From the NCBI GenBank assembly GCA_934045075.1, contig OW203722.1:15984986-16048985 (forward strand): a stretch of DNA of 64,000 nt, in the 5' to 3' direction. Source of the stretch: Yponomeuta sedellus (Eukaryota; Arthropoda; Insecta; Lepidoptera; Yponomeutidae). The notes beneath the pieces are model-generated. The model did not search any database. It worked only from the letters and a program-made list of their open reading frames with translations, and had not been told where the DNA came from. The first letter of the stretch is position 1. Every line of letters starts with the position of its first letter. This document shows, in pieces, positions 3,001 through 42,010 of the stretch. The translations under genes and the position numbers were made by a program.

Positions 3001-3539
3001 CCTACAGTGGTAGGAAAACCAGTGTTTAATATACATAGATCATACTCATCGAGTGTGTTATAGATCTCATTACCGCGAGAGTTAGACCTCAAACACCCAA
3101 AAGCGACGTGATGGGCGTTGAGATCGCCCGAAAAAAGCATTGGTTTCGGTAACATATTCAAAATCTGTTTGAGTCTTCTGCACTGAAATCTACGGTTATC
3201 CTTAGGAGGCGGTATATAACTACAGAGAATTGATAAATTACCAGCATTGGTTTGTAAGATTATTGCAGCAGAATGCATAAAATTGTAAAAAGGAACAGAG
3301 ACAGTAGAGAATTTCAAATTGGATTTAACTAAAATTGCTACACCTCCTCGTCCATCTTTCCCGTCTTGTCGAATTATATTGTAATTAGGAATATTAAAAG
3401 TGCTATTGTTCCTAAGCCAAGTCTCATTTAAAAGACAAACGTCTACATCATTATTTAATAAAAATGAAATTAATAATGGCTTCTTGTTAATAACTCCTTC
3501 TACATTAAACTGTACTATTGTAATAAATGATTTATCCAT
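1..3539 (-). CDS. Retrotransposon ORF2: endonuclease, reverse transcriptase, RNase H (C-terminus cut by window edge)
   Basis: Reading from the ATG at 3539 downward the frame is open for 1179 codons to base 1. The ATG overlaps the end of ORF1 by 8 nt, as is usual for coupled translation in this class. Residues about 1-215 are an APE-type endonuclease: NETWL holds the catalytic Glu, SGDLNAHH the Asp/Asn pair, then a SAIDIS motif and a GSYHFP segment in place of the usual SDH. A reverse transcriptase follows, with PGLDDIPYK, SYRPISL, QFGFRKGRS, FLDVQGAFD and YADDLLIYS (about residue 666, bases 1530-1541). RNase H follows from about residue 960, with YTDGSK, TAEAYAIHQAL, FTDSLSVL and WVPAHRGITGNEVVDRAA. 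The last visible residues, RMRFGHCQTQAHL, match the Cys/His-containing tail seen in I-type elements. Confidence 0.93.
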   Translation of the reverse strand, partial: MDKSFITIVQFNVEGVINKKPLLISFLLNNDVDVCLLNETWLRNNSTFNIPNYNIIRQDGKDGRGGVAILVKSNLKFSTVSVPFYNFMHSAAIILQTNAGNLSILCSYIPPPKDNRRFQCRRLKQILNMLPKPMLFSGDLNAHHVAFGCLRSNSRGNEIYNTLDEYDLCILNTGFPTTVGSPSKMPSAIDISSVSPSVAPLCEWTVHDDAMGSYHFPTVITIHTTIHKYDIGNSADRYLYNKADWQAYASETERILGQFNIDSSNPVKTYNDFCEELNQIKDVTIPKLRKTNSIVIKKPVPWWDNECSDAVNKSKEALNMYRSNGNMSSYIEYKKLNAFKKRLLKEKKKYGWTKLVESFNRYTPISTIWNYIKRFKRVTLPKMPKNDEWIPAFIDKYAPPYPPEKNIDINSLNEIFNNTGNSNCAHLSEPFSFAEFTFAIKYRKDTTPGLDDIPYKLIRNMHVDAQKSLLEMYNVLWMTQSIPEAWKTQCVIPILKPDKSSDDFNSYRPISLSSCVGKLFEFMLKTRLDHYVEQNKILPEQQFGFRKGRSATESFTSLISDIRNSFHSQSATVCAFLDVQGAFDNVDPSVLAGILSEIGMPGHVCKWIFHFLYDRTMYVKFNNILHGPGQVFKGTMQGATISPLLYNIYTSQINKYLTQTGVQFLQYADDLLIYSVHKDVNIAVNNLNLALSQVHNYYFNKLKLVINPLKSGAMLFSKRLSPCNSLVEYNNLPIPWLKEKKFLGILLDHRLTFESHINYIIKNASKALNILRSLAGVHWGSDPKILSMLYKSIMRSHFDYSSIAYMGASLALLKKLEVIQNKALRIITGAMCSTPINAMQCEACIPPLHLRRLQLAERFCLKMLTKNNRVVLDHILPMHATELGNSVAPYANFNQILNGNIPTLLRIVLHLNDLTKNLHQDNLWPLYRMDLDILLKNNFVHKPCITNQQDLLAFLENNHLYSIYTDGSKTVDRVNSAFFDPQLKKTKCFKIDTRCSIFTAEAYAIHQALIYVQNIDTCNIIIFTDSLSVLLALEGNCLRYNVNYLIYNIKNLLNSLLVSGKVVKLMWVPAHRGITGNEVVDRAANLDPDEDHSTDLKLPFTDLHVHLNENLKAIWCNYWNEISKEKGSWYRDIQGSPPAQPWYHRKKDINCRKYITTLNRMRFGHCQTQAHLYRLSLAQ

Positions 3540-4698
3540 TATTCTGTAGTGATTTAATCAACACTTCCTGCACAATGGAAGCATTGATTTTGGGCAAATT
3601 ACCATTCGCCAATGTTACCAAAGCTCCTACCAAACCATTTAAGATGAAGTCGCTCTTGACTATTTCTTTGACTAAATTTGAATTTGAGATCACAAGTTGT
3701 GGAGGTTCTGTTACTATGGGTTTTGTGGGAGCCTTAGCAATCATTGGCGAAGGCTTGGCTTTCAGTGGAGGGAAGTTCGAGTTGTAGTTTTTGACAATAT
3801 TGTCTTGTTTTTTGGCTGAAGCAGCAATTTTTGCATAGTTAGTCCTATTAACATGTTCTTCTAACTTGTTTTTTTTAACTGGACAGTCTCTGGAAATTGC
3901 CAAGTGAGGCCCTTGGCAGTTGATACATTTCAATTCATCCTCTTTGTCGCATTTTGTGAAGTGGTGCTCACCAGAGCAGATAGAGCACTTCTGCAGTCCT
4001 TTACAGAACTTCGCTCCATGGTTAAATCTGAAGCACTTAAAGCACTGCAGAAGTGGTGCTCTGTACTCATTGACCTTAAATCTATACAGATCTAGGTATA
4101 CATACTCCGGTAGTGTCTGTGACAAGAAAGTCACAGACACTGAACTGTACGGAACAATTTCTCCGTTGACCTTGCGGGTAAAGCGCCTTACGCCTACAAT
4201 TTCAAATTCTGCTGCAAGTTTCTTAAACAGTTCTTCATTCGTGATACTTGTTGGAACGAAGCGAAGGACCCCAATAGTCTCTACAGACCTCGCGGGAATA
4301 TAGGCTCTAAAGCCCTGTTTCTTCAGCAGTTCGTCATTCGTCAGGAAGTTGTTCGCATTGGAAGCTTGTCCAAAGCACACACCAATTTTATTAGCATTGA
4401 TGCGCTTGATGCCCACCACGCCCTTGACGTCATTTTTGAAGATCGTGTTTAGCTGGTCAGGGTTTTTATTACCAATTCTGCCATTTTCGGATTCAACAAA
4501 GGCAATGAATTCATCGCTCACCAAATTTTCCGCGTACAGCCGCCTGTAACCTGGTTTCAGATATGGCTTGAATCCATCATCCTGCTGCTGCTCGCCGTGA
4601 TGTTCGCGTCCATGGTCCTCAGTTCGCCCCCTCTTTAATTTGGGAGGAGGTTCATCCTCGGAAAGCCCAGGGGGCTTTGCCCCCGGGCGATCTTTCAT
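3532..4698 (-). CDS. Retrotransposon ORF1: gag-like nucleic-acid-binding protein
   Basis: 388 residues. In elements of this class ORF1p coats the element RNA and forms the cytoplasmic RNP. Three zinc knuckles are visible at C219-C232, C238-C250 and C258-C272, the standard trio of Jockey/I ORF1 proteins. The region before them (about residues 90-210) has the spacing of an RRM-like PRE_C2HC domain, with the segment TIGVLRFVPTSITNEELFKK. The N-terminus is Lys/Arg/Asp-rich and disordered. The stop codon (3532-3534) overlaps the ORF2 start. No internal stop was seen. Confidence 0.93.
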   Translation of the reverse strand: MKDRPGAKPPGLSEDEPPPKLKRGRTEDHGREHHGEQQQDDGFKPYLKPGYRRLYAENLVSDEFIAFVESENGRIGNKNPDQLNTIFKNDVKGVVGIKRINANKIGVCFGQASNANNFLTNDELLKKQGFRAYIPARSVETIGVLRFVPTSITNEELFKKLAAEFEIVGVRRFTRKVNGEIVPYSSVSVTFLSQTLPEYVYLDLYRFKVNEYRAPLLQCFKCFRFNHGAKFCKGLQKCSICSGEHHFTKCDKEDELKCINCQGPHLAISRDCPVKKNKLEEHVNRTNYAKIAASAKKQDNIVKNYNSNFPPLKAKPSPMIAKAPTKPIVTEPPQLVISNSNLVKEIVKSDFILNGLVGALVTLANGNLPKINASIVQEVLIKSLQNNG

Positions 4699-4849
4699 CT
4701 CGCCGAACCTAACGACGATGTTTTAAATACTTTTAGCGTAAGTTTATCGAGTTTTAACAATTTTCAGAAATATTATTGAAAAATTTTCAAAAAACGCGCC
4801 TATCCTCTTCAAAAGCCCGCCAAAAAAAAACATTTCATTCATTCCATTC

Positions 4850-10600: not shown

Positions 10601-13018
10601 ATTTATCGCTTTTATAACATATCCTTTCTAAATGAGATAAATGGGTTGGTGGGTAAAGTAGGTGGAATGGAATTAAAATGGAAGCAATATTGAACCGAAA
10701 AATCGAATCTTTAATATAGCTTTAACATGTAGTTTACAAATAAACACTCACTTGCAACCATTTAGTAAGTCCTCTGGTGAAATCAGTTCTAACCCTCTTG
10801 CTCTGTTCACTCTGCACCATACATCAGCTAAGGACATTATGCCACCACAATCCTGGAATAAAACAAATTATATAGCAAATTTAGCGTGTTACAAATATCT
10901 TGGATTTAAAAACCTATTTAGAGGCTAAAAATTTCACCCATGCCGGGATTCGAACCCGCAACCTCTGGCTATCCGTACCAGCGCTCTACCAATTGAGCTT
11001 AATTGGTAGAGCGCTGGTACGGATAGCCAGAGGTTGCGGGTTCGAATCCCGGCATGGGTGAAATTTTTAGCCTCTAAATAGGTTTTTAAATTTGTTCCTT
11101 AGCACGGGTTAGTGCATTAAAAATAAAAATAGTGTAAATATCTTGGATACATTGAACTTAGTAGGTAGGAGTGGAAATTGTATTTTTAAGTTTTCACATC
11201 GTAAACCAAACTAGGCGAGCTTGTATCATGGCTTTTGACAACTTATAATGAGTGTCAGATACAATTCAATGGTATGGGTACCTATGTTAGTTATACGAGT
11301 TCAGTAAATCTACATAAACCACCTTGTGTACCTGCGGCGTAAAAAAATTCAGTCACAACATGCAATTTGTGAAAATATTTGTATTTGTATTATTAAAAGA
11401 ATTTTGTCTGAACAGATTTGACTAGTTAGAATTCATTAAAATCTTCGTAAGTTAGTGTGTTAGCAAGGTTCTTTTATCTGCATCCCCGTTGAACAAAGTC
11501 GTAAACACATTTGTCACAAAACAATTGAAAAGGATTTACCATCAAAACAGCAACCATCATGTCAGAGATCTGCTGTGCCAATCCCATGTAGTACTCCGAG
11601 TCGGACCTAAAAGTATCTCTTGTTACTGGGTCATCAATACCTAAACTCATTAGGTAGGACTTGAATCTCACTGTGTCATCTTCAGAGATGTCACCCTGTT
11701 TCTCCTGAAACATAATAAAGTCACATAAAATTAACTATGTAAGTAAAGTATAAATTATTTATTAATGTAGATGTCCAAGATACATTACTATGCTCAACTC
11801 ATGTCTTAGGGGGCGTCCATTAATTAAGTGACACAATGTTTTTACCACCCTTCCCCTTTACTGCTCCACTATCAATGTTAAAAAGATTCATATTGTATAA
11901 TTTTTTTTACAAATATTGTTTAGACTAGCTGTGCCCAAGAACGCCTTGGCTGTGCCTCACGGTGTTACCTGCTATTTATCGATTTGCCCATGAAAATGAG
12001 ATATTTTCCTGCAGTTAAACATAGCCTAAGTGTTAAGCCAGGGTGAAAGCTAACTCCATACCAAATTTTATTAAAATTGCTCCAGCCATTTAGATGTGAA
12101 AAAGTAACAAACATTTGTCTTTATAGTATTAAATAAGATAAGATAAGAATATTCTTTAAGAATAAGGGTGATTATTCAAAATTGTTAACAAGCAAATTCA
12201 GTGGCAAGCCGGATGCTAGTGTCAATTAAATGTTAAAGTGAACTTACTCTTATTTTAGTAGAAATATTCTTAGAGATCACAACCATTTCCTTAGCTTTCT
12301 CCATCAACTTTGTCAAGTCTTGGAATGCTACACTAATGCTCTGGTCTGTAGCTCGGTGCAGTTCCTCGATGCTTCTTTCAATCCCAACTATTCCGGATCT
12401 TATTTTACTGTTGGGAGGGGTTGTAGAAGTTCTTGGGCTAACGCTAAGACCCGATTCACTAGTAGGTGATGTTTGATTACTAGGAGCAATATTTTGTCTC
12501 TCCCAGGCTTTTGAAGTAATAGCTTCATTCAGTGCCTTGTAAAAACTGGCGTCAATACCATCTTTGAAAGAGAATTTCACAAAGTGGAATGGGCTTGTCA
12601 CTGAAGGCCCTGGCCTCTTACCAGGGAGTGCTGGCCCTAAGTGTATAATTATTCGCTTTGGGCCTCCTAAGCCGAAGACCCCTCCACTCTCCTCCTCGAC
12701 GCAAAAAGCGTAGAAAAGGTGCAGGGATAAGCATGTTAAACCTCTGGGTATGTCTCCTGGTTTACCCCACAGTATCCTATGTGTTGTAAGAACGACTTCT
12801 CCGTCAGTAAAATGAGTCTGTAAAGAAATTAGCGTTAGTGGTCATTGTGGGAAAAAAAATTATGTACCTACTATGAATTAATTATGTACTAGGAAAGTAT
12901 GTGCTATGAATTTAGTAGGTACCTTATCGTCACCGTCATATATTTTGACATTTTTGTCACGTTTCAAGTAGGATTCCCCTTCGAACAGACGTGCTTCAAT
13001 ATATTCAAATCGATCCAT
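7671..13018 (-). CDS. VPS36: VPS36, ESCRT-II subunit (6 exons)
   Basis: Exons in transcript order: 13018-12923, 12817-12248, 11704-11540, 10852-10752, 9505-9391, 7841-7671. All have AG acceptors and GT donors and the phases agree; the sum is 405 residues (human about 386, fly about 399). VPS36 is the ESCRT-II subunit that binds ubiquitin and phosphoinositides through its N-terminal GLUE domain and drives multivesicular-body sorting at endosomes. Visible are the GLUE region ([29 protein letters not shown]), a Ser/Thr/Pro-rich linker at about 150-190, and the EAP30/winged-helix part ([50 protein letters not shown]). The introns hold many SINEs, including a family-B SINE and a 5S-derived SINE in the last one. 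A tandem duplication lies upstream of the start. Confidence 0.95.
7940..8190 (+). mobile_element. Family-B tRNA-derived SINE
   Basis: The tRNA-like head has box A (TGGCGCAGCGGTTTGGCACGC) and box B-like GCTTCGATCCC. A body with 'ttctagtttgtctc...cgtcgagttagcacct' and the tail 'gaatatttattta' follow. Six copies occur in the window (also 25956, 33505, 53383, 60773, 63822). This one is in the last VPS36 intron, antisense to the gene. Confidence 0.88.
8359..8712 (+). mobile_element. 5S rRNA-derived SINE
   Basis: The first 100 bp resemble animal 5S rRNA: GATCACGAAGGTTAAGCAAC and TGGATGGGTGAACG correspond to the 5S box A and box C region (GATCACCGAA.TTAAGCA..., TAGATGGG.GACC). The body and 3' part (ccaacccggacttgg...ttcct) recur at 33795, 45040 and 62780. 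It lies in the last VPS36 intron. 5S-type SINEs are called SINE3 in other animals; membership here is inference. Confidence 0.8.
8713..9390. other. VPS36 intron remainder, nothing recognised
   Basis: No recognised repeat. A GC-rich patch at 8800-8890 contains the palindrome cggtccaccgagaggaccg; its role is unknown. Confidence 0.4.
9560..9726. repeat. Inverted-repeat element (MITE-like)
   Basis: The arm 'ctgagtttcataaaactgcaattcgtacct..' at 9560 is mirrored by '..aattgtagttctatgaattaggcc' at 9700-9726. Inner arms 'gacaagtcgatgtacattg' and 'caatgtac..catcgaattgtc' continue the fold. It lies within a VPS36 intron. No target duplication was established. Confidence 0.55.
10041..10280. mobile_element. 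Family-T SINE, partly inverted copy
   Basis: Minus-oriented family-T sequence with the tRNA-like core (tcgaacccgcgacctctgg) and the upstream leader 'catcagtgaaatttcgaacctct'. It joins a short plus-oriented 3' end (cccggcatgggtggaa...taaataggttttt). It is immediately followed by another family-T insertion at 10299. Confidence 0.8.
10299..10472 (-). mobile_element. Family-T SINE with 12-bp target-site duplication
   Basis: A simple, non-dimeric minus-strand unit of 174 bp. It is flanked by a perfect CTTGATATTTCG at 10287-10298 and 10473-10484. This defines a family end: in element sense it starts ccagatgtcgctgcc and ends aataggttttt. The core folds as a tRNA-like cloverleaf, with a five-pair anticodon stem CTGGC/GCCAG around loop ACGGATA and box B GGTTCGAATCC. 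Confidence 0.9.
10906..11135. mobile_element. Family-T snap-back (inverted dimer) SINE with 13-bp target-site duplication
   Basis: Two arms of about 85-90 bp face each other around 10995-11000, forming an almost perfect hairpin. Both arms contain box B, the tRNA-like anticodon arm and 'agcctctaaatagg'. The right arm continues into the family 3' tail (cacgggttagtgcattaaaaataaaaat). A perfect AAATATCTTGGAT flanks the whole unit (10893-10905 and 11136-11148). The arms share private variants (TTTCACCC, GCAACCTC) absent from other copies, so one arm was copied from the other. It lies in a VPS36 intron. Confidence 0.92.
11925..12131 (+). repeat. Lepidopteran interspersed repeat, 3' part of a non-LTR or related element
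   Basis: The string 'gctgtgcccaagaacg...agcctaagtgttaagccagggtgaaagctaactccataccaaattttat...aaagtaacaaacatttgtctttatagtatta' has the layout of the common moth repeat that ends 'gtaacaaacat...tttataatatta'. A minus-strand relative is at 61295. An AAGATAAGATAAG microsatellite follows. Confidence 0.6.
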
Positions 13019-15907: not shown

Positions 15908-18900
15908 ATGGCGGATTCCAAAGATATTTTGCTTCAAAAAATCAAGGACCAAGGCGATCTCGTGAGGAAACTAAAAGCAGCAAAGGATTCCAAGGAGAAG
16001 GTAAGTTTTCGTATACTTGGAGCGCCCGCTGAAGCCTAGGTCATGGTGTAGCAAAGGGTGTGCAAGGGAAAAAACACTTAGAAAAATTTTGCAAAAAAAA
16101 ATAGGGTCCCCGTAAACCCTTCTTTTTATATTTTTAATCAAAGGAGGGCATCAAAATATGCAACTTTTCCCCTTAAAAAAAATCTCTCAATTAAATATTT
16201 GAGATTTTACAGGCGATTTAAAATCTGAAATATTTAATTTAGAGATTTTTTTTTAGGGGGAAAAGTTGCTCATTTTGATGCCCTCCTTTGATTAAAAATA
16301 TAAAAAGAAGGGGCTACGGGGACCTGTTTTCTGAAGTCAATTTTTCTTCTATGTGTTTAGCCATATAAAATTTAAATCGCCTGTAAAATCTGAAATATTT
16401 CATTTAGATATTTTTTTTAGTGGGAAAAGTTGCTCATTGTGATGCCCCCCTTTGATTAAAAATATAAAAAGAATGGGTTACGGGGACCCTATTTTTTTTT
16501 TTGCGAAATTTTTCTAAGTCTTTCCCTTGCACACCCTTTGCTACACCCTGACCGAAGCCTACCTAATACTATTGTCATTGTTGCATCATTTTCATTCATC
16601 GTGAGTGCATTTTCCTTTGTAGGGAAAGACTCAAGTGGGTAAAAATGTAAATTTTGAGGAACTTGACCGTCACTTCTTAGATTATAGTTATATATGTGGA
16701 TTTGAGCCTACTAACATTGACCTGGAGTTCTTAAAAGTCCTTGGTTCTTCAACCCCGAACTTTGATAATTGTTTAAACTTGCGACGTTGGTGGTACCATA
16801 TGCGGAGTTTCTCAAACTTCGAGAAATCATTATTCCCTGTGACGCACCCTCCAGATATCTTGAAAACCTTCCAACAAAGTTCTAAAACCCTGGATCTTAA
16901 GGTCAGTCAGAAAAAATGTTTGCATGGGGTGTATAAACAGGCCTGCTATTGTACATTCAGATCTGAGCTATACTGTTCAGGCAGTGTTTTAATTTTCCCT
17001 TATATTTTCATGCTATTTTGAAGCTCCTCATATGGTCATGCATCACCACTGCTCTTACGACATAGGAAAAGTGACTTTATCTTAACAAAAATCATTAACT
17101 TAATTCCAGATTACCCTTACTCTATTTTTTATCAAAAATCAAGTAAATAAATCCGGAATTAAGTTGATAATTATTAGTGCTTACAAAAGTTTTTGGTAAC
17201 AAAAAAACTATACAAATTCTTTTTTTCCGGGTACTTCATCGGAAACCAGTGGTGATGGAGGACTGTTATTTGGAGCATAAAGTAGAATACACTTTGTAAA
17301 TGTACAGCATGTCTGCTTTCAAAGCACTGAGTTTATGTAGGAGTAGAGTGGTGATTGTTCAGTTATGCAATCGTGTTGCTAAGAATAATATTGCTGCAAC
17401 TATTTCAACATCTTCTCAACTGAAGGTAGGATTTTACAATTAGAAAGTACTTTTATGCTTCATTAACTCTTAGCGGATAGCTGATTTTCTGCCCAAAAAT
17501 GCTGAACTGTAAACTATTCAACAGATTTATTTTATTTACATAGTTAAATATGAGAGAAGGCCTGTGCCATTGCAGTTCAATATTATTGGGTGCTAATGCC
17601 AACAATATTAAACTTCAATTAAGTGATATCTCTTGATTATTATGTAGATAAATAGAGAACCCTCAATTTTATTTATTTAAATGTTATTCAATCACATAAG
17701 TACTGTGATTGAATGTAATGTAAAGTACTTCTTGTATTACATACACCCTTATGGATTAAGGGTGTATTAAATACAAGAAGTATTTTGTTCCAGTAAATCT
17801 TTAATATTAAAAATACTGTACAAAGTTACCCCAACTTTACCCACCAACCCTATAAAATCCTATAAAAATTATATTAATTAGCCTATAGCCTAACTGAAAT
17901 TGCCAACCTTTCCAAGGCAAAGTTCATCAGTAAAAAATGCTTGCTTATGCTAAAACCAACAAACCAAATTGTGCAATATAAGAATGACTGCTCACATGAA
18001 AATATGTAGTGCTATGATGGTACTTATATTTATATGAGGCCACTTTTTTGCTGGTTGAAACACAAGCCACTTGTAATGAAAGGGAATGGAATTTATTGTA
18101 GTTTAAAACAGAGGCTTCCAACTATAACTTAGTTAACCTTTAAAATGAATGCTTTACTATGTAATGTTATCAATAGTAGCAATATATACACATCATCTTT
18201 AACATTGCTAGATTTTACTCAAACAACTTTATACTTTTAGATGAATATCTTATCTTATGAATTGTTGGAAACTATACCTGAGAGACTTTGGAGATTAAAA
18301 TTTATGAAGAGTGATCAGACTAGCTTTATTTCATAGTACTTTCCGCGGTCTTAGTTAGACCTGAGATTTCCGCACTTAGCCTCATAGTTGGGCCATTGTA
18401 CGTAGCGAGCGCTGAGGTACGTTAACACTTCAGACACTAGGGTTTCCTTACGATGTTTTCCTTCACGTCGGCGAGTGGTATTGCTACTATAATTTCACAA
18501 ATGTACATAGCTTAGAAAACAAAGTCATTGGTACATGCCGGGGTTTTAACCCACGACCTCCCGATTGAGAGGCCGCTACACCGCTCTGCTACCACCGCCC
18601 TTATTTCATAGTAGATGCCATATATCCTACAGCTGATTATTACATTGCATAGCTTATTGTAGCTTATAAAGTAATTTGTTGTTAATTATTTTTTATTATC
18701 TAACAGAGGTTTATTTTAAATACCTAAAACAAACAAAAAAATATATAAGAGGATTATTTTATCGCAGTGTAACAAATTTTTACAAAGATGACCTGTCAGA
18801 ATCGTGGCAACTGATTGTCCCTGGTTTGTGCCTACCCCTCTGGGATACAGGCGTGAGATTATGTTATATTATAACAAATTTATATAACTATGTTAAGTAT

Positions 18901-21900
18901 ATAACAAATTTATCACACTAAGTATTGTTTACGATAGTCATTATTTAAATACAATCCTGGGAAAAGGTCCTGGAAAATAGGTAATATTAAGTGTACCCTT
19001 ACCACTGGCATCCATCTCGCATTCACTTTGTAACATACTTAGTTATTGTAAAATAAGTTTTTGATAAAATAATATATTAATAACTACATACATTTTTGAC
19101 ATGTTTTCGGTTTTAATATTTCCTTAAACTTATGGCGAATTAATTTTGTGTGTAGTCATCAATAAATATAATTAGTAATTAATAATCTATTAATAGAAAA
19201 AAAATTGTTTATTAATAATCACACGAAAAAGTATTAAAACTAAAGAAGCAGCCTCAGCTCGGACTCTTCTTCCAGATCCAAGAAGAAGTCTCGAAACTTC
19301 TACAGCTGAAGTCGCAACTTGGTACAGAGGAGGCAGCGCCTCAGAAGTTCACACTCAAGACAGCAAAGGGCACCAGGGACTACACTCCTCAGCAGATGTC
19401 CATCAGAAATGGCGTCTTAGACAAGATTATCGCAGTCTTCAAAAGGCATGGAGCTGAGTGTATTGACACACCTGTCTTTGAGCTGAAGGTAATTTTGGTG
19501 GGGGATGTTTTTTTTAAATTTATGTTCGGAATTTTAACTGTATTATCCTTTCTATTCTAATGTATCCTTTGACCTTTAACATAATGTACTTTCACGCGAA
19601 AATTTTAGGCCAAGGTATCCAGCACCGACTAAACTTAAGACTTACGATTTTAGCCCTTAAGGCATTAGGAGGTGCTTACTAGCGCCACCAATGGAATAAA
19701 ATCATAACTTGTTTTATAATACGTTTTTTTCCAAAAGTAAACATCGAAAATCTTAACGACTAATATTGTAATAAATTAATATTGTACTATAAATGCAATA
19801 AGTATTAATGGTAGATATAGAACCTGAAAAAAAAACACAAAAAGTTTGAAAAATTATTAAACATACACTTCGGGCGCTTCGGGGTGCTAATTCTACCAAT
19901 GGAAAAAAATCATAAGTTGTTTTATAATACGTTTTAACAATCTTAACAACTGTGACAACTATTTTTGGAAACTACACTCTAGAACCTACGATCAACAACC
20001 TAGGACTTGAATCGATTTCCGCCATAAATGGCCATTTTTAGCGGAAATCGATTAAAGTCCTAAGATGTCGATACTACGTTCTAGGCTGTATGTTTAAAAA
20101 TTGTTATCGCAGATATTAAGGTTTTTGGTGTTTACTGTTTGAAAAAAAGCGTATAAAACATGTTATGATCTTTCTTCTCTTGGTGGCGCTACTTAGCACC
20201 CCCCGCCTTAAATAATTATGTATAATAATTATGCATATTAATTGAGGGGAGTGCTAACTGCTTTCTTAGTTACCACCCCCTAAATAATTATGTTTATGAT
20301 TACTGCAACTTTTCTACCGACCATGCCCTTAAATTATTCCGATTTGTGTGAAATCCAAAACCTCGCTTTTACCACAGGAAGTGCTAACTGGTAAATATGG
20401 AGAGGACTCTAAACTCATATACGACCTGAAGGACCAAGGAGGCGAGATCTTGTCCCTCCGCTACGACCTTACGGTGCCGCTGGCACGTTACTTGGCCATG
20501 AGCAAGATTAACACACTCAAACGCTACCATGTTGCCAAGGTGTACAGAAGAGATAACCCCGCGATGACGAAGGGTCGCTACAGGGAGTTTTATCAGTGCG
20601 TAAGTAGTGTTGCAACAATTTTATGTTGCATCTCAAATATATAATTAAGTACTTGTGTACTAACATAGTTTTAACGTCTCCTATCTGCCCACTTAATCAA
20701 ATCAATTTCTTCTTCTTCTTCAGGCTATATGTTAGGCGTTGAAATAAATAAAATTATTTCAATGTAAAGAATTTACATTCAGTTTGCTTGAATGTCAATG
20801 TAAAATGTAACTGATCACTAAACTGTGTAATGACTCGTTGTTACTTTGAATAAATAATAAAATGTGATTCGTAACAATTTACTTTTTGGGAATTCAATCA
20901 ATCGCAGAGACCGAGTTGATTTCAGATTGTTAGTGTTAACACTTTGTAAGCGAGTGTGTGCACAATAAAAGGAAACGGCTTTATAACAGGATGTACAAGT
21001 TACAAACAACATATTTAGAATGAATGCTTACAATATGCCTACATAGCATATCTCCACAATCTTTATACCAACTGCAATTCAACGTACTTTTGTGATATTT
21101 CCTTAGAGAAAATTGTGTTACTGAATATGGGTGTTTCTACTACACATTTGAAGATTCGCACTTCCTTGAATTAGAAATTTGCATTCTTAGTTCTGCATTA
21201 GGACTATTGTACACATGTACTAGGTTTTACATTTGTAGGTATGTGTAAAACATTGTCAACATTATTTGTATTTTAAAAAAATACCTTAGTGATAATTGTG
21301 ATACAACTTATATACGTCCTAATACATGGTACAGGCCTTCTCTCAGAGAAAGAGAGAGAGAGTATGAGCTTAATGGCGTGGCCTCAGTCTTGGTAGCACT
21401 GGGTATCCTAGTTTGGGACCAGTACACTTGATCACCACCAGATACATCAACGACCAGGATGTTGTGTAGAAGTTATTATTAATGAGTCACCACGCGTGCC
21501 CACAGAGTATTATCAATTTCAAACGCTTAGCTATGTGAACACCGCAAACTTCAGGTTCCCTCACGATGTTTTCCTTCTCATTAATAACTTTATAAACATT
21601 CGCGATTACGTTTAATGTATTGGCGTGTCCCCATTGTCAATAGGGGTTTCCTTAGTTTTATGCTTTCCCTTCCTCTTTTCAAGGATTTCGACATAGCCGG
21701 CGCATACGACCCTATGGTACCGGACGCGGAGTGCCTGAAAGTGGTCACCGAGATCCTGGAGAGTCTAAACGTGGGCAAGTACGTGCTGAAGGTGAACCAC
21801 AGACGGCTACTCGACGGCATGTTCGAGGCATGCGGGGTGCCCGCGGACAAGTTCCGTACCACGTGCTCGACTGTCGATAAGTTGGACAAGGTGAGGCGAT

Positions 21901-24900
21901 TGCAACATTACAATGCTTGTGGGCGCGTCAGCACGCACTTGAATTGGATTCGTGTATCGTTCCGCTCTATTTAGTTGAGAAGAGCGAGATGGAACGCGTT
22001 GATACAATAGTACCCAGTGGAAATAAATGAATGTCAAGTTCATGTCTATTAATGAAATAAGACGTCTATTTCTCCGTAAAGAATTTCTATTCCGTTTGTT
22101 AAATGCCAATATACAATATTATCTCTGTTTACGGCTCTAGTAGTAGCGGTGAAAAAGATAGAAAGAAACCACACCACTCTGAACATCGTTTCTCACATCA
22201 TCTTATATTAATTACTAGCTGACTGGGCAAACGTTGTTTTGCATACGAAATTAAATTAATTTTATTTCAACGTAAACAATTTAGGTACATTCTGTTTACT
22301 GAATGTAAAATGTAAGCCGCTGCATTCGGGCCGTAGTGTAGTGGAGAAAAAGGCGGCGGGAACAAAACTCCGCTCTGACCATCTTTTCTCAAGTCATATT
22401 AAATCTAATACATCAGTTGTCACGTAGAGCTCTGATAAGATTTCATGATTGCCATCATATTAATTTGCTTACGACCTATTCTCAGCCCCACCTAATTCAC
22501 AAAAAAAAATCCTATTTAATTGGTAAAGCCGTTTAGGAACAGTTTGATGACAGCGTTCTTGTTCCTAAACGGCGACACGAGATCCTTATGTATTAGATTA
22601 TCAAGTAAATCTAATACATAAGTCTGTAGGAGTACCTACGTAACAAAATCCCATGAGTATAATCAAAAACTTGCAATGTGTGGTCACTTCTACCATCACT
22701 TAGCCCTTGTTTCACAATGTTCAAATAAAGTTCCAGATAAGCTATCCTAAACTAGGGATGGCATCTGTTCTAAATTTAAATATTTTTTCATATATTGCGT
22801 GTGTTCGTTTATGGCTTCAAAATAGAACAAACGGCAGCCCTGGTTGCGGATAGGGTATCCGAAACTTTATCTGCAGATTGTGAAACATACCCTTAGATTA
22901 ATGTTTTGTCTCCCACATAACAATATTTCTACTGCTATTCCCTTTAAGGTTGCTCAATTGCCAATTATTTATCTTCGGCACCACTCAACCTTCTTCTCAA
23001 CTCCTTCTTCGCGACTGCTCTACTTCGCATACAGCTCTGTTAGCATCGGCTGTGTATTTGCTACTAATCCTTCGCCGGTCTTTTCTTTGGTTTCCCCCAT
23101 AATTCATTTGTAAAACCATTTTCTTCGTATTTCAGTCGCCCTGGGACGAAGTGCGATCGGAAATGATAAACGAGAAAGGCGTTACCCCTGAGGCGGCCGA
23201 CAAAATCGGCGAATACGTCCGTCTGAACGGAGGCACGGAGTTAGCCGAAGCCTTGATGAAAGACGAGAAATTGTCCAAGACGAAAGCCGCGATCGAAGGT
23301 CTGGAAGGAATACAGTTGCTGCTGCACTACTGTGAACTCTTCGGCATAAAGGATAAGATCGTGTTTGACTTGAGTTTGGCCAGAGGGTTGGATTATTACA
23401 CCGGCGTGATTTATGAAGCTGTACTTACACGTAAGTAGTCTTAAAATAATAAAAAGCTCAAAGCTTTAATTTGGCATAAGCAGCCTACTCCATCCGCTTT
23501 CAGAGTATATGCCTTCTCTGTGAGTTCTCCTTTATAGAGAACTGATACAAAAGATGTATCAATAATAAATTCAGCGGAAAAAGAGAGTCCATACATACAA
23601 AGAAATGCATAATTTTTTTTATTTTATAAGTAGTTTTGCTAAGAGTTTTTGGGAACTTGCCTTTTAACCTGTTTGAACTATTAACACTACCAGAAATTTT
23701 TGCTTGAGTCGGTCTAGTGAGCTTGGGCCACATTTGCCAGTTCGTGGAGTCCACTTAAATACGTTTTTACAATATTGGTTCTTCTACAGCCCAGCTTCGT
23801 TAAGCCCAACGCTTATCACATCAAAGAAATATTTTTTTCAAAAATTGATTTGGTTTGAAGTGACCAAATAAAAAAAAAATATTTCAACGTGAAGAATTTA
23901 CATTCTGTTTGCTGAATGTCAATGTACGTTGTAAGCCGCTCCCTTCGGGTTATAGTGCAGTGGAGAAAAAGGCAGCGGAAGAAAAAACACCACTCTGACC
24001 ATCTTTTATCAAATCATCTTCGACTTTCTAATCTTAACAGGTTATGTCAATCACTTTAATAAACAGTCAATATAGTCATATTGTACTCGTAATACAGTAA
24101 GCATTCATGTACAGTCAACAAACAGCACATGAACCTATACGGATGTGCGTTCAAATCGGTAAGGGCGACTTAAAAAAATTGTAGATTTTAACCTGCAGTC
24201 AACTGTCATTATCACCAGCCATTTGACGCTGTCCACTATACTCAGTACTAAATACTGAGATTATTGAAAAAACTTCTTTTTTCCTTTTAGAGCCAATAAA
24301 ACTCGGAGGCGAGGAGCAAACGGTGGGATCCATCGCCGGTGGCGGCCGGTATGACAATCTCGTTGGAATGTTCGACTCGAAGAACAAACAGGTGAGGCAA
24401 TTGAATTGGTTACGCCTTCGGAATACTGACGCCGTGAACCGCGAAATGTTTGCAAAACAGCGAAATCTATTCTCTCTCTCTCTCTCTCTCTCTATTATAG
24501 TCTGCAGGGAAATGGTAGCGGTGCAAACGCGAGATGTAATTAGGAAACCGCGGAAAGTTCGAGCGAAATGCGCCAAATCTATATAGATGAATAATAGTAA
24601 ATTGATAATTTAAAACTTTTGTTATTAACTATCGATAGGTAGTGAAGAAAACAATTGTTAACGCGTTAATTCAGCGTCGCTGGAATATTCTTTATTGTAC
24701 ACAGAAATTAATTACATTTAATTACTACAGTTAACAGTAGTTATTTAAAACTATAGTAAAATTGGCGGCCTTATTACTAAAAGCAATGTCTTCCAGGCAA
24801 GCATTAGTGGGTATCACAGAGGAAGTAATATTAGTGGCATTTTGACTCCAGGTGCCCTGTGTGGGCGTGAGTATCGGCGTTGAGCGGATATTCTCAGTGA

Positions 24901-25643
24901 TGGAGGCCCGTCTGGCCGCGGGCGAGATGCGGGTGCGCTCCAATGAGGTGGAAGTGTATGTGGCGTCCGCACAGAAAAATTTCCTCGAGGAGCGTATGAA
25001 AATATGCACGGAACTCTGGAACGCTGGCATTAAGGTGAGTTGAGTCTGCAAATTTCGAATGAATGGGCTGTAATGTGAGCCATAACATGGAGTTATTAGA
25101 AATCAGAAATGTATTTCATCGTAATGAATTTACATTGTATGTCGAATATTGAATTTAATTATATTCTTTTTAATGCACTAACCCGTGCTACGGACAATTT
25201 TAAAAACCTATTTAGAGGATAAATAGTCGCCCATTGGCTCAAATGGGAGAGCGCTGGCACTGTTAACCAGAGGTCGCGGGTTCGAGTCCCGCAGTCTTAA
25301 GCAGACTTAAGCAGTCCCGGCATGGGTGGAATTTTTGGCCTCTAAATAGGTTTTTAAAATCGGAGTAAAATTAACATTTCGAAACTGACAACATTTCACT
25401 TTCGCTTCTTCACAGACCGAGCAGTCCTACAAGAAGAATCCGAAGATGCTAAACCAGCTACAGTACTGCGAAGAGACAGGGATCCCGTTCGCCGTGGTGC
25501 TCGGCGAGTCTGAGCTCAAGCGAGGTCTGGTCAAAATACGAGACATCACGTCCAGGGAGGAAGTCGAGGTGGCCCGGGATAATCTCGTTGATGAGTTGAA
25601 CACCCGATTGCAGTCGCTTAAGGTTGATATAAATGGGCAGTAG
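15908..25643 (+). CDS. HARS: Histidyl-tRNA synthetase, cytosolic form (8 exons)
   Basis: Exons 15908-16000, 19276-19488, 20378-20599, 21684-21890, 23136-23430, 24291-24391, 24852-25034, 25416-25643 give 513 residues (human about 509). The enzyme charges tRNA-His. Order: WHEP helical hairpin (residues 1-50), class II catalytic core, and anticodon-binding domain (about 410-505). Visible motifs are motif 1 around [10 protein letters not shown], motif 2 [10 protein letters not shown]...GRYREFYQC, HisA RGLDYYTG, HisB AGGGRYD, and motif 3 [14 protein letters not shown]. The ATG at 15908 has a strong context (CCACCATGG). Two further exons (16623, 17309) allow other isoforms. The likely polyadenylation signal (about 25954) lies in or beside the antisense tail of a SINE. 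Confidence 0.96.
16039..16553. mobile_element. 515-bp TIR element with 8-bp TSD in HARS intron 1
   Basis: Ends GGTCA-GGTGTAGCAAAGGGTG... / ...CACCCTTTGCTACACC-TGACC are flanked by a perfect GAAGCCTA at 16031-16038 and 16554-16561. Long inverted arms (about 150-180 bp) carry 'gatgccctcctttgattaaaaatataaaaag' blocks; one block is present three times in mixed orientation. No ORF. An 8-bp duplication with GG-starting ends fits Merlin-like or hAT MITEs; the superfamily is unsure. Without it and one TSD copy, the intron between 16000 and 16623 would be about 99 bp. Confidence 0.85.
16623..16901 (+). CDS. HARS: HARS cassette exon encoding a eEF1B-beta-like GST-C domain
   Basis: 279 nt (93 codons) with an acceptor (cctttgtag/GGA) and a donor (CTTAAG/GTCAGT). 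It has no stop, and phase is 0 at both ends, so it can be spliced in or out between the first and second HARS exons. The product ([19 protein letters not shown], then [11 protein letters not shown]) resembles the N-terminal GST-C-like domain of eEF1B-beta: 'L..LN..L...SYI.GY.P...D', then 'LRWY.H..S'. Such domains dock several synthetases into complexes. Inclusion would give about 606 residues and would fall between the two WHEP helices. No ATG precedes it, so it is not a first exon. Use as an exon is inferred from frame, splice sites and similarity. Confidence 0.8.
17309..17425 (+). CDS. HARS: Alternative first exon of HARS: mitochondrial presequence
   Basis: An ATG opens 39 codons ending at AAG/GTAGGA, phase 0, the same phase as exon 1a, so it can join exon 2 at 19276. 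The peptide ([15 protein letters not shown]...) has several Arg/Lys, no acidic residue and a Ser/Thr-rich end: a typical matrix-targeting presequence. The result would be a mitochondrial HisRS of about 521 residues lacking the first WHEP helix. In fruit fly one HisRS locus supplies both compartments. The promoter of this form would lie between the cassette exon and 17309. A short upstream ORF (ATGGAGGAC...) lies just before it. Confidence 0.82.
17726..17790. repeat. Long hairpin in HARS intron
   Basis: The arms agtacttcttgtatt.catacaccctta and taagggtgtatt.aatacaagaagtatt pair over about 28 bp with a 5-nt loop. It may be a small MITE or a processed-RNA hairpin. Confidence 0.7.
18339..18600 (-). 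mobile_element. tRNA-derived SINE (third family) with 13-bp TSD
   Basis: In element sense it starts GGGCGGTGGTAGCAGAGCGG, has box B GGTTAAAACCC, and contains the widespread 'gaaggaaaacatcgtaaggaaacc' body. A perfect TTATTTCATAGTA flanks it (18326-18338 and 18601-18613). It is antisense within HARS. Confidence 0.9.
19660..20208. mobile_element. Mariner-type MITE(s) in HARS intron
   Basis: Ends AGGC..GGAGGTGCTTACTAGCGCCACCA and its inverse TGGTGGCGCTACTTAGCACCCCCCGCCT are flanked by TA (19658-19659 and 20209-20210). A second left end (gcgcttcggggtgcta) at about 19870 suggests one copy nested in another. Related copies are at 27651 and 45620. Confidence 0.7.
20735..20815 (+). repeat. Fragment of HARS-intron repeat family
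   Basis: 'atttcaatgtaaagaattta...cagtttgc.tgaatgtcaatgtaaaatgtaa' matches the longer copies at 22240 and 23868. Confidence 0.65.
21330..21600 (-). repeat. Decayed SINE body and tail
   Basis: Contains the moth tail 'acaggccttctctcagagaaagagag' and 'cacgatgttttccttct', the reverse of the aaggaaaacatcgtga SINE body. No head or duplication recognised. Confidence 0.6.
22240..22400 (+). repeat. Interspersed repeat, HARS intron copy 1
   Basis: 'atttcaacgtaaacaattta...attctgttt...ctgaatgtaaaatgtaagccgctgcattcgggc..tagtgtagtggagaaaaaggc' is shared with 23868-24015. A weaker relative is at 22020-22200. Class unknown. Confidence 0.7.
22528..22622. repeat. Two adjacent perfect hairpins
   Basis: Hairpin 1: gccgtttaggaac (22528-22540) and its inverse (22561-22573). 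Hairpin 2: cttatgtattagatt (22585-22599) and its inverse (22608-22622). Arms of 13 and 15 bp without mismatch, in a HARS intron. Confidence 0.75.
23868..24015 (+). repeat. Interspersed repeat, HARS intron copy 2
   Basis: Same family as 22240: 'atttcaacgtgaagaatttacattctgtttgctgaatgtcaatgta..ttgtaagccgctcccttcgggttatagtgcagtgg'. Confidence 0.7.
24472..24495. repeat. (TC)n microsatellite
   Basis: About twelve TC dinucleotides shortly after the sixth HARS exon. Confidence 0.9.
25165..25362. mobile_element. Family-T SINE, foldback remnant in last HARS intron
   Basis: A minus-oriented family tail (taatgcactaacccgtgctacggacaa...cctatttagagg) is joined to a plus-oriented tRNA-like core (cccattggctcaaatgggagagcgctgg...ggttcgagtcccg). 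A 10-bp local duplication (cttaagcagactta) interrupts the core. No clear TSD. Confidence 0.8.
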
Positions 25644-36602: not shown

Positions 36603-36687
36603 GGTTATAGTGCCCAGATTCGAGGGTTGGTTTTCGACAAGTATTGGTTTTGGCACACTTCGGATTCAGATCAAGGATTGATCAGCA

Positions 36688-36987
36688 ATGACTGGTGAGA
36701 CTAATGGAAACGGGCAGCTTGGGCCTCCTGCTACGTTTCATTTGGAAAAACTAGACGGCGTGAGAAACTACCATGTATGGAAATTCCAGGCTCGCATGGC
36801 TTTGATTTTAGAAAACCTATGGGAGTGCATTGAGGGGACATCGAGCACTGTCGACAAGGCTAAAGACCAGAAGGCGTTGGCAAGGATTTGCTTAGCAGTG
36901 AAACCATGTTGTTTTCAGCATGTACGTTTGGCTCAAACGGCTAAAGAAGCTTGGACAAAACTAAGAGTACGACGTCTTGGTATCTAG
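36688..36987 (+). pseudogene. copia gag, N-terminal remnant
   Basis: 99 codons starting MTGETNGNG, with the copia gag phrases FHLEKLDGVRNYHVWKFQARMAL and TAKEAWTKLR (both typical of the UBN2/gag N-terminus). After TKLR the frame runs into a stop. The middle of gag that should follow, roughly 60-80 codons by comparison with family layout, is absent, and the downstream part (ARLLQEEYRR) continues in another frame. Confidence 0.88.
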
Positions 36988-38626
36988 TTTGGAAGCTGCA
37001 AATTTTTCTGATAATTTATGCAGTGAGACTGTTAGAGCTAGACTTCTTCAAGAGGAATATCGTAGAAACACGAAGTCAAACGGCAACCTGGTTTCATCAT
37101 ATGAAGTCGCTTTTGTTGGCCGGAGTAGAAAGGTTATATGCCACTATTGCAGAAGACCAGGCCACATCAAAGCAAAGTGCTTTAAGTTGAGACGCGACAA
37201 GAAATTGCAGAAGCCACAGGACAAGATAGAAGAAGCTTTGTTTGTGTCTGCATTTTCAGCATGTGCCTCAGAAGATTGGATCATAGACTCAGGTTGTACT
37301 TCCCACATGTGTAATGATAAAGGCTTATTTATTTCCCTGGACAGTAACTTTTCAAGTAATATTTGCATTGCAAATGGGGACAACTTGTTGTGTAAAGGTA
37401 TTGGTACTGTTAAAATTAATATTAAGAATAGTAATATTAAAAAAATTGAAAATGTTATGTTTGTACCTGAGTTGTTCACCAATTTACTGTCAGTTAGTCA
37501 GTTAGTAAGGAAGGATTATAAAGTTACTTTTCAGGAAGAATTTTGCAATATTAATAATAATAAAAATAAAGTCATAGCCAGAGCATCTAGGATAAAAGGA
37601 GTATATAGGTTAGATTGTGTCACAAGTTCTGTCCAACAGAAAAACACTAGCAACTGCGGCCAGGCAATTGTGGAGGAGCAGCAAGGAGCTCATGCTGCTA
37701 GTTCTACAGCTATATGGCACAGGAGATTGGGACATCTGAGTAGTGCAGGTATGTGCAAGTTGTTAAATATGTCTGAGGGTTTAAAAATTAGTAAAACTAA
37801 TAAATTAGCAGATTGTGAGGCTTGCATTCAGGGGAAGCAAACAGTAAAATGTTTTCCCAAGGGCGAAGCCCAGCGTGCTCAGAAACCTCTTGAACTGATA
37901 CATTCTGACGTTTGTGGTCCCATGCCAGAGCCTAGTTGGGGTGGAGCTAGATATTTAGTGACATTTACGGACGATTTTACTCGAAAATCTTTTGGTTATC
38001 TCATCCAGAATAAAAGTGAGGTTATGCATATGTTTATCAAGTTTAAGGATCTAGTTGAAAAGCAGTTGTGTTTATCAGTGAAATGTTTAAGGTCTGATGG
38101 AGGGGGTGAATATTGCAGTGCTCAATTCACCAATTATTTGTCTAGTCAAGGTATAATCCATCAGGTAACTATGCCCTACAGTCCACAACAAAATGGTGTT
38201 GCTGAACGGTTGAATAGGACTCTAATAGAAAAAGCAAGGTGTATGCTTATTGATGCTAAGCTGGGCAGGCGCTATTGGGGTGAGGCCGTTATGACGGCGA
38301 TATATTTAAAGAACAGGTCCCCTTCAGCTGCAGTGCCTGACATCACTCCGGAGGAATTATGGACTGGTCACAAAGTGGACCTTAGTCATTTGAGAGTCTT
38401 TGGGTGCCGAGCTTTTGCTCTTGTGCCAGATAGTCACCGTCGCAAGCTAGATGCAAAGTCTAAGGAGTACATTTTTGTGGGATACTGCGAAAATTCAAAA
38501 GGTTATAGATTAATAGATCCTAGTAATCCTAAAAGGGTTTTGAATTCAAGAAATGTGCATTTTATTGAATCTGACAGTGATATAAATAATCTTGATAAAA
38601 TCTGTGATAGCAATGAAAATAAATGA
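36977..38626 (+). CDS. copia gag C-terminus, protease and integrase
   Basis: 549 codons open. Zinc knuckle CHYCRRPGHIKAKC; protease active site DSGCTSHM; integrase zinc-binding part (HRRLGHLSSAGM..., CEACIQGKQ); integrase core with the first Asp in SDVCGPM, the second in SDGGGEY, and Glu in QQNGVAERLNRTL; a copia-type C-terminal part with VFGCRAFALVP. The start shown follows the gag deletion and is not a natural initiation site. It ends at a stop inside the linker to RT, where the next ORF is in a different frame. Confidence 0.93.
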   Translation: MVSSLEAANFSDNLCSETVRARLLQEEYRRNTKSNGNLVSSYEVAFVGRSRKVICHYCRRPGHIKAKCFKLRRDKKLQKPQDKIEEALFVSAFSACASEDWIIDSGCTSHMCNDKGLFISLDSNFSSNICIANGDNLLCKGIGTVKINIKNSNIKKIENVMFVPELFTNLLSVSQLVRKDYKVTFQEEFCNINNNKNKVIARASRIKGVYRLDCVTSSVQQKNTSNCGQAIVEEQQGAHAASSTAIWHRRLGHLSSAGMCKLLNMSEGLKISKTNKLADCEACIQGKQTVKCFPKGEAQRAQKPLELIHSDVCGPMPEPSWGGARYLVTFTDDFTRKSFGYLIQNKSEVMHMFIKFKDLVEKQLCLSVKCLRSDGGGEYCSAQFTNYLSSQGIIHQVTMPYSPQQNGVAERLNRTLIEKARCMLIDAKLGRRYWGEAVMTAIYLKNRSPSAAVPDITPEELWTGHKVDLSHLRVFGCRAFALVPDSHRRKLDAKSKEYIFVGYCENSKGYRLIDPSNPKRVLNSRNVHFIESDSDINNLDKICDSNENK

Positions 38627-40649
38627 TAATTTGAATTATAATGAATTAATTTTGAATAATTTGAACAATGTTTCTTATAATTATTCTAATGAATTGAATA
38701 ATAATTGTGAATATTTTTCTGCAATTCCAGTGATGGAGCCCTCTTCTGGAACTAAGGCCCCCAGAGAGAGAGAGTCTCCTCCTGTGTGTGAGCAGCCACC
38801 TGTGTGTGAGCAGCCACCTGTGTGTGAGCAGCCACCTGTGTGTGAGCAGCCAGCACAAGCGTTGTGTGACAGTCCACATAGTGAGACATCATGCGACACT
38901 ATTGGTAACACAAGTTTGCATTTTGAGAGTCCAATCGAATTTATGTCATGTAGTGACTCTGAGGACACGGAGGTTGACATCACGACGACGGCGGCGGAGC
39001 CACGGAGCTCGCAGCGTCCCGTGAGATCTACAAGAGGTACTGTACCCAAAAAGTTTGATGATTATGATCTGTCACTTTTTTCTCAAGCTTACCTTTTTTA
39101 TGAACCTCAATCCTATGAAGATGCATTGGCTAGTAATAATAAGCTAGAATGGGAAGGTGCTATGAACACAGAGTATGAATCTCTTATTAAGAACAGTGTA
39201 TGGACATTGGTGGACAGGCCAGTTGATAGGAATATCATTAAATGTAAGTGGGTGTATAAAGTCAAACAAGACACTTCAGGGAGCTTTGATAAATTTAAGG
39301 CTCGTTTAGTAGCTCGAGGATTTAGTCAGGAACCTGGGGTGGATTATGACAAAACTTTTGCCCCTGTTGTACGGCATTCCACAATGCGTGTTCTTTTCAA
39401 CCTAGCTAATGAATTAAATATGGATATTAATCATGTAGATATTACAACAGCTTTCCTAAATGGTACTTTAGAAGAAGAGATATATATGGAGCAGCCTCCT
39501 GGTTTTATTGTTGACAAAAACAAAGTTTGCTTATTGAGAAAAAGTATTTATGGCTTAAAACAAGCGAGTAGAGTTTGGAACATGACAGTTAATGATTTAC
39601 TAGTCAAGTATGGTTACTCTCAAACAAAATGTGAACCCTGTGTATATGTTAAGAGAGGTAATAATAATAACTTAACAATCTTAGCGGTCTATGTGGATGA
39701 CTTTTTTATTTTCACGAACAATTTGAAAGAAAAAGAAAGTTTAATTGATCTATTGTCTAAAAACTATTGTGTTAAAAATTTAGGAGAAATTGTGAACTGC
39801 TTAGGAATGAATGTTCAAAGAGATAGGTCAAAGGGTGTTTTAATTTTGAAACAGACTGAGTATATTAAAAAGTTATTGACTAGATTTGGTATGTTAGACT
39901 CTAAAGAAGTATCTACACCTATGGTTGTAAATGAAAAATTTAACAATGAAAATAGTAATGACACTTGTTTGACAGAATTTAATTATAGAGAATTAATTGG
40001 CTCATTAATGTACTTATGTGTGTGTACACGACCTGACATTGCTTATAGTTGTAGTTTGCTGAGTCAGTTTAATAATAATTTTAATAAATGTCATTGGTTA
40101 GCTGCCAAAAGGGTACTTCGCTATTTGAAGAAAACAATGCATTATGGCTTGGTTTTTAAAAAGTCTGAGAATAATAAATTTTGTTTAGAGGCTTTTGCAG
40201 ACGCAGACTGGGCGAATGACCCTATTGACAGGAAATCTTTTAGTGGTTTTGTGTTGAGACTAGGCAGCAATACTATTAACTGGGAATGTAGAAAACAACG
40301 CTGCGTCGCTTTATCCAGCACTGAGGCGGAATATCTGGCTATCAGTGACTGTTGTAAAGACATCCTGTTTATGTGTAATTTTTGGAAGGAATTGACAGGA
40401 CGCCGGCTTCAATGTAAATTAAGAAATGATAATACAAGTGCTATTAGGCTTTTAGATTCTAAAGAGTGTCATAAGAGGACAAAGCACATAGATATTAGGT
40501 ATCATTTTGTGAAAGATTTGATAAGTAAAGGTCTAATTGCTGTGACTTACTTGCAGACTGATTGTATGATGGCTGATATCTTAACCAAGGCTTTGTCTTC
40601 AACAAAACATCATGATTTCATGAAGAGCTTGAATGTGATACCTATGTAA
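38592..40649 (+). CDS. copia reverse transcriptase and RNase H
   Basis: 685 codons open. After a low-complexity linker come the RT phrases KCKWVYKVK, FKARLVARGFSQ, DYDKTFAPVV, DITTAFLNG, SIYGLKQASRVW and the catalytic YVDDFFIF; then RNase H with DADWANDPIDRKS and ALSSTEAEYLAIS and the terminal KHIDIRYHFVKD. It overlaps the integrase frame by 35 nt in another frame, so the polyprotein is broken here. Natural initiation at 38592 is unlikely. Confidence 0.93.
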   Translation: MIKSVIAMKINDNLNYNELILNNLNNVSYNYSNELNNNCEYFSAIPVMEPSSGTKAPRERESPPVCEQPPVCEQPPVCEQPPVCEQPAQALCDSPHSETSCDTIGNTSLHFESPIEFMSCSDSEDTEVDITTTAAEPRSSQRPVRSTRGTVPKKFDDYDLSLFSQAYLFYEPQSYEDALASNNKLEWEGAMNTEYESLIKNSVWTLVDRPVDRNIIKCKWVYKVKQDTSGSFDKFKARLVARGFSQEPGVDYDKTFAPVVRHSTMRVLFNLANELNMDINHVDITTAFLNGTLEEEIYMEQPPGFIVDKNKVCLLRKSIYGLKQASRVWNMTVNDLLVKYGYSQTKCEPCVYVKRGNNNNLTILAVYVDDFFIFTNNLKEKESLIDLLSKNYCVKNLGEIVNCLGMNVQRDRSKGVLILKQTEYIKKLLTRFGMLDSKEVSTPMVVNEKFNNENSNDTCLTEFNYRELIGSLMYLCVCTRPDIAYSCSLLSQFNNNFNKCHWLAAKRVLRYLKKTMHYGLVFKKSENNKFCLEAFADADWANDPIDRKSFSGFVLRLGSNTINWECRKQRCVALSSTEAEYLAISDCCKDILFMCNFWKELTGRRLQCKLRNDNTSAIRLLDSKECHKRTKHIDIRYHFVKDLISKGLIAVTYLQTDCMMADILTKALSSTKHHDFMKSLNVIPM
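38778..38849 (+). repeat. 18-bp tandem repeat in the copia linker
   Basis: Four in-frame copies encoding PPVCEQ, between integrase and RT. Confidence 0.95.
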
Positions 40650-41973: not shown

Positions 41974-42010
41974 TATAAAACTGTTAGTGCAATATAGCAC
42001 CTACTCATTA
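41974..42010 (+). promoter_or_regulatory. TATA/initiator core promoter of the secreted-protein gene
   Basis: TATAAAA at 41974-41980 and an insect initiator-like TCATTA at 42005-42010 are spaced so that the initiator A (42007) lies 33 nt from the first T of TATA, the classical distance. The start codon is 57 nt further on. Confidence 0.75.

Follow-up and report, generated by a model that had tools for sequence, protein, structure and literature searches.

A conserved cassette exon is predicted to place an eEF1B-alpha-type GST-C-like domain in the WHEP hairpin turn of insect histidyl-tRNA synthetase

What does a 93-codon open block contribute to HARS, the histidyl-tRNA synthetase (HisRS) gene of the moth Yponomeuta sedellus, where it stands between the exons for the two helices of the WHEP hairpin? 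The block occupies positions 16623-16901 of the window, by which we mean the whole 64,000-nucleotide stretch analysed (assembly GCA_934045075.1, contig OW203722.1, positions 15,984,986 to 16,048,985, forward strand), and window coordinates are used throughout. An earlier account made without database searches, here called the sequence-only reading, had taken the block for a cassette exon encoding an eEF1B-beta-type GST-C-like domain that would split the WHEP hairpin, and had proposed a docked HisRS isoform of about 606 residues in which WHEP function was replaced. The results below point to a genuine exon shared by several insect orders, and suggest a domain through which cytosolic HisRS may dock to eEF1B.

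The block (exon G) comprises 279 nt, a multiple of three, and is free of stops in one of six frames; stops number 6 and 11 in the other two plus-strand frames and 7, 4 and 4 in those of the minus strand. It is bordered by an acceptor (...tttgtag/GGA) and a donor (CTTAAG/gtcagt) that are in phase 0 on both sides, in agreement with the sequence-only reading on coordinates, frame and splice sites. Joining the HARS exons in one reading frame yielded a product of 513 aa without the block and 606 aa with it, the length that had been predicted. A chance open frame was ruled out by the absence of stops, set against 4-11 in each of the other five frames, together with the existence of homologues. At the level of sequence, we therefore regard the exon as a confirmed part of HARS.

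A protein-collection search with residues 1-150 of the 606-aa form as query returned 39 proteins at E values up to 0.01. The insert was present in 22 of these HARS proteins (P0002-P0023): 20 lepidopteran species, moths as well as butterflies, account for one protein each (Bombyx, Manduca, Spodoptera, Ostrinia, Pieris and Vanessa among them), Manduca for an additional, shortened model, and the lacewing Chrysoperla carnea for one. P0002 and P0005 have the insert, and a different part of HARS is missing from their annotated models. The other 17 proteins (P0024-P0040) lack the insert and align over WHEP only (21-25 % of the query), with helix 1 running directly into helix 2; three fly species are among them, represented in the comparison by these records and by no other isoform. 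Searching with the lacewing insert added HARS of the ground beetle Carabus blaptoides fortunei (P0041; E 6.8e-8), so that Neuroptera and Coleoptera are represented by one insert-bearing protein each. The beetle insert in turn retrieved only itself, by a method that needs shared five-residue words and hence gives no proof of absence from Diptera, Hymenoptera or other orders. The exon first read in a single moth is accordingly found in 20 further lepidopteran species and in two outgroups. Its presence in Coleoptera, Neuroptera and Lepidoptera would place the gain before the split of those orders, roughly 300 million years ago, unless it was gained repeatedly at the same place.

The same two flanking motifs bracket the insert, in frame, in all 22 relatives from which it was cut out, a protein-level observation in which the motifs themselves defined the cut. 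In four species (of Manduca, Heliothis, Achroia and Epargyreus), insert-bearing and insert-free records were identical elsewhere (483/483, 484/484, 483/483 and 484/484 residues after the insert, and the same residues before it), and the border of the insert is the place where the Yponomeuta exons meet. This identity indicates, as the sequence-only reading had supposed, a cassette, which lies within one gene and is not a paralogue. In a fifth pair, from Amyelois (P0017/P0031), P0031 is truncated, and 408 of the 412 tail positions that could be compared agree. Insert-bearing records carry names of different kinds (isoform X names, hypothetical products and unnamed products); the annotators chose the labels 'isoform X1/X3', and such labels are usually transcript-based. 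Identity of the insert to the Yponomeuta exon ranged from 31 to 47 % among the aligned Lepidoptera, versus 82-89 % for residues 196-590, and the corresponding values for the lacewing were 35 and 72 %; the beetle protein is absent from the underlying alignment (A1) and hence from these figures. The insert therefore appears to evolve fast outside its conserved residues.

Assignment of the insert to a domain family drew on profiles, structure prediction and motifs. Near-duplicates P0007, P0010 and P0016 and the fragment P0023 were excluded from alignments A2 and A4, and P0023 also from the motif count over 23 inserts (Yponomeuta plus 22 relatives). A profile of 20 inserts searched against the PDB gave as its best match 5dqs_D, the N-terminal GST-C-like domain of eEF1B alpha (EF-1-beta), at E 1.1e-10 and 44.5 bits, followed by delta GSTs and AIMP3 (E 4e-5), with unrelated chains appearing at E above 0.01. 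A single insert sequence matched 5dqs_D at E 1.3e-4, and identity between the insert and eEF1B alpha was approximately 24-28 %. An AlphaFold2 (AF2) model of the 93 residues displayed an all-helical GST C-terminal fold lacking the GST_N half (helices 11-20, 31-40, 51-62, 65-69 and 78-92; mean pLDDT 78.7, pTM 0.69), and Foldseek placed the human eEF1B alpha domain first (5dqs_D, E 0.014), leading narrowly over AIMP3 and EPRS-AIMP2 chains close behind. Residues 1-7 and 85-93 of the model fall below 50 pLDDT, leaving the last helix mostly unreliable, and MAFFT (alignment A2) put the first ~8 and last ~11 exon residues in WHEP columns, so the ends of the model carry no meaning.

Pfam was less decisive. 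GST_C matched 4 of the 20 inserts, none above cut-off (best 17.7 versus 20.7 bits), and no insert exceeded the cut-off for GST_C_6 (best 15.5 versus 28). Arc1p_N_like matched 17 of 20 at E values up to 1, with one above cut-off (Bicyclus P0004, 27.9 versus 27), 16 below and three inserts unmatched; the Yponomeuta exon itself scored 12.9 bits against a cut-off of 27. Pfam support for a GST-C-like family is thus weak, and the family named by the sequence-only reading is borne out clearly by the PDB profile and the fold match while its GST_C profile check came out mixed. The motif RW[WY]xH[MIL]xS[FY] occurs in 23 of 23 inserts and S/TxxD at a helix start in 22, the exception (P0020) having Cys; we take this Ser/Thr-x-x-Asp to be the helix-capping box of the GST superfamily. 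Residues S22, Y23, D33, R55, W56, H59, S62 and E67 are invariant in the 20-member alignment. The eEF1B alpha domain (PDB 5dqs) shares with the insert a SYIxGYxPS...RWYNHIxS motif and the build of a helical unit without a GST N-terminal half; the two differ in what they are attached to, a nucleotide-exchange domain in eEF1B alpha and a tRNA synthetase in HARS. AIMP3 (EEF1E1), EPRS, MetRS and ValRS likewise contribute GST-like domains to synthetase or eEF1 complexes, AIMP3 and AIMP2-EPRS scoring lower against the insert than eEF1B alpha does. In profile alignment the Arg of the RW pair corresponds to AIMP3 residue 144, allowing for a 12-residue offset between chains 4bl7_B and 2uz8_A. Mutations at Ser87, Val98 and Arg144 of AIMP3 block its binding to ATM (PMC7382500), and Interface 2 between GST domains of the multi-tRNA synthetase complex (MSC) is formed by helix alpha 7 and the alpha 4-5 loop (PMC6760448). 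We read the RWxxH helix of the insert as helix alpha 7. As judged from these comparisons, the assignment as an eEF1B-alpha-type GST-C-like domain holds.

The position of this domain bears on what becomes of WHEP. Helix 1 and helix 2 are both kept in the 606-aa form, and the insert lies in the turn between them. Pfam WHEP-TRS was recovered in two stretches in four of four long proteins (above cut-off in P0022 and P0041, below it in P0013 and P0003), and in a full-length model of the Bombyx protein, poor overall (mean pLDDT 72.9, pTM 0.53), helices 2-31 and 112-132 flank the domain. The interruption is confined to the tip of the hairpin and costs it neither helix, so the suggested splitting stands in the sense of an interruption only. 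With both helices in place WHEP function need not be replaced, and the proposal that WHEP is replaced is ruled out as worded. TIGR00442 (hisS) scored above cut-off in the three insert-bearing relatives scanned, to which the Yponomeuta product was compared by alignment.

Helix 1 is lost only in a third, mitochondrial-type form. An alternative first exon (exon M, 17309-17425) lies between exon G and exon 2; its ATG follows an in-frame stop at 17297 (12 nt before it), its 39 codons encode six basic and no acidic residues, and its donor is in phase 0. Spliced to exon 2 it yields 521 aa with neither WHEP helix 1 nor the GST-like domain. It likely encodes a mitochondrial targeting leader, by prediction from the sequence, and would explain how a single HARS gene serves both cytosol and mitochondrion. 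We take its product as the mitochondrial form because HisRS of Drosophila (CG6335) is listed with predicted dual localisation from one gene giving three polypeptides (PMC4826098). CG6335 resembles moth HARS in this provision of cytosolic and mitochondrial HisRS as several polypeptides, and differs in that a GST-like domain goes unmentioned in the available text of that paper (0 occurrences of 'gst'). One HARS gene would therefore appear to offer three N-termini.

Taken as a whole, the insert probably plugs HisRS into a protein-synthesis complex. Docking to eEF1B is the first guess because the closest sequence relative binds eEF1B gamma, entry 5dqs being by its title the eEF1B alpha-gamma complex, and because eEF1 gamma is given as the complex partner of the CysRS GST domain (PMC6321835). 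We propose that the conserved cassette exon, by placing the domain in the hairpin turn, would allow cytosolic HisRS to bind a partner of the GST type, the likeliest being eEF1B gamma, with which eEF1B alpha pairs. A fraction of HisRS would in this way be docked on the eEF1 complex, which takes up aminoacyl-tRNA, and its catalysis would stay the same. Since exon G lies upstream of the start of the mitochondrial-type form, that form cannot include it, which would confine the docking form to the cytosol. We judge docking to eEF1B slightly better than an even bet, with a probability of about 0.55. More tentatively, and with the odds somewhat against it, insect HisRS may operate as a three-way N-terminal switch between plain cytosolic, eEF1-docked cytosolic and mitochondrial forms, in which the docking form predates the divergence of moths from beetles and lacewings and exon inclusion sets the amount of His-tRNA passed directly to eEF1A.

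An alternative that keeps the docking and changes the partner would tie HisRS to the MSC, through GST domains of the AIMP2, AIMP3, MetRS or EPRS type. The closeness of the AIMP3 and EPRS-AIMP2 chains to eEF1B alpha in the fold lists, the AIMP3 profile match and the RWxxH helix common to the insert and AIMP3 all speak for it, as do the matches to Arc1p_N_like, a family that takes its name from a yeast docking cofactor. Against it, eEF1B alpha comes top by sequence (44.5 versus 26.6 bits), if narrowly by fold, and the insert consists of a helical half only, whereas MSC GST domains have both halves; those of AIMP3, EPRS, MetRS and ValRS are two-part folds. Findings on the human complex fall on either side: its GST domains pair through such surfaces (PMC6760448), and HARS1 is listed as a non-MSC synthetase (PMC9166799). 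On balance we consider MSC docking unlikely. We doubt a little more strongly that the insert acts without a complex partner, as an allosteric or self-association module that alters the WHEP hairpin (in tRNA binding or dimer behaviour) or pairs with itself. Its location in the WHEP turn and its fast evolution would suit such a role, and like GST domains can meet through Interface 2, as in an EPRS crystal contact (PMC6760448); the residues kept across three orders, such as RW..H, are nevertheless common to eEF1B alpha and AIMP3. We also know of no case of a WHEP hairpin regulated by such an insert.

The two other explanations would deny the exon a function or its existence. That it is a tolerated exon of little function, through low-level inclusion noise or as a decaying fusion, is favoured by its fast evolution and by two features of the Yponomeuta locus: GTCAGT of exon G is the sole HARS donor with a pyrimidine at +3, and a foldback element directly upstream takes up about 525 nt of intron 1, which is 622 nt long. 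This element could affect exon choice in Y. sedellus. In Lepidoptera, Neuroptera and Coleoptera alike, the flanking motifs and the frame are kept (22 of 22 relatives) and so is RWxxH (all 23 inserts), which makes this explanation improbable. Least credible of all is an annotation artefact in which intronic sequence, or that of another gene, was fused to HARS by predictors. Gene-finder error can be common to predicted proteins, but the Yponomeuta block has one stop-free frame of six and exact phase-0 splice sites, and the insert sits at the same place in differently named kinds of records and is homologous to a known domain. Docking to eEF1B remains the reading we prefer.

GST-like domains are a way in which certain synthetases join elongation-factor and multisynthetase complexes, and those listed with them in the domain tables cited below (CysRS, GluRS/EPRS, MetRS and ValRS) are class I enzymes, except for the ProRS half of EPRS. 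A report by Kim from 2000 is said, by its title, to describe a splice form of human CysRS (CARS1) with an 'elongation factor-associating domain'. CysRS, a class I enzyme without a WHEP domain, would thus resemble HisRS in acquiring, by alternative splicing, a domain that associates with elongation factors; HisRS differs in being class II and in carrying the domain in the WHEP hairpin turn, and its docking is a prediction. With a cassette exon inside that hairpin, HisRS of three insect orders would repeat the CysRS trick, this time in an enzyme of class II. Since exon G can be skipped in frame, one gene would give both forms, a natural on/off pair for testing aminoacyl-tRNA channelling from synthetase to eEF1A. 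AARS Online assigns a GST domain to CysRS, GluRS-E, MetRS and ValRS and WHEP to HisRS (PMC11580382), and the domain tables of PMC7564348 and PMC6321835 agree on the GST-bearing synthetases; in the available parts of these three sources no GST domain is given for HisRS, in line with the sequence-only reading, which knew of none. None was reported either among the titles and abstract openings listed by a literature search, whose coverage leaves out most subscription papers. As far as could be seen, what is new here is the recognition of the domain in HisRS, its site and its age, the proteins themselves being already in public databases.

Table 1. Exons and associated features of the HARS locus, in window coordinates
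Feature	Position	Strand	Basis
HARS exon 1: ATG start and WHEP helix 1, 31 codons	15908..16000	+	Phase 0, donor GTAAGT, aligned to insect HARS
Nested inverted-repeat (foldback) element, most of intron 1, directly upstream of exon G	16034..16558	.	Arms 16034-16071/16521-16558 (92 %) and 16093-16222/16371-16500 (91 %)
Cassette exon G: predicted 93-residue GST-C-like domain of eEF1B-alpha/EF-1-beta type	16623..16901	+	Open frame, splice sites, insert in HARS of 22 other species, family matches
Exon M, alternative start of HARS: 39 codons with six basic residues and no acidic ones, a likely mitochondrial targeting leader	17309..17425	+	Phase-0 join to exon 2
HARS exon 2: WHEP helix 2, start of catalytic domain	19276..19488	+	Gene model, aligned to insect HARS
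HARS exon 3	20378..20599	+	Gene model
HARS exon 4	21684..21890	+	Gene model
HARS exon 5	23136..23430	+	Gene model
HARS exon 6	24291..24391	+	Gene model
HARS exon 7	24852..25034	+	Gene model
HARS exon 8, stop codon included	25416..25643	+	Gene model

Several other features were observed in the window. The last HARS intron contains a tRNA-like sequence at 25234-25293 (RF00005, 33.8 bits), either a tRNA gene or a tRNA-derived repeat. Divergent from HARS, an exon of Vps36 (ESCRT-II) lies on the minus strand at 12233-12838, with Pfam Vps36_ESCRT-II and EAP30 above cut-off. Long open frames at 36682-40649 with zinc-knuckle, integrase-like and reverse-transcriptase-like stretches presumably represent a copia-type retrotransposon, judging by these motifs, and a 396-aa open frame with CCHC zinc knuckles on the minus strand at 3532-4722 resembles a gag protein of a non-LTR (long terminal repeat) retrotransposon. 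Finally, a 435-aa open frame at 41998-43302, rich in His, Gly, Asp and Lys and containing a signal-peptide-like stretch, matched Pfam DUF4779 at E 8e-18.
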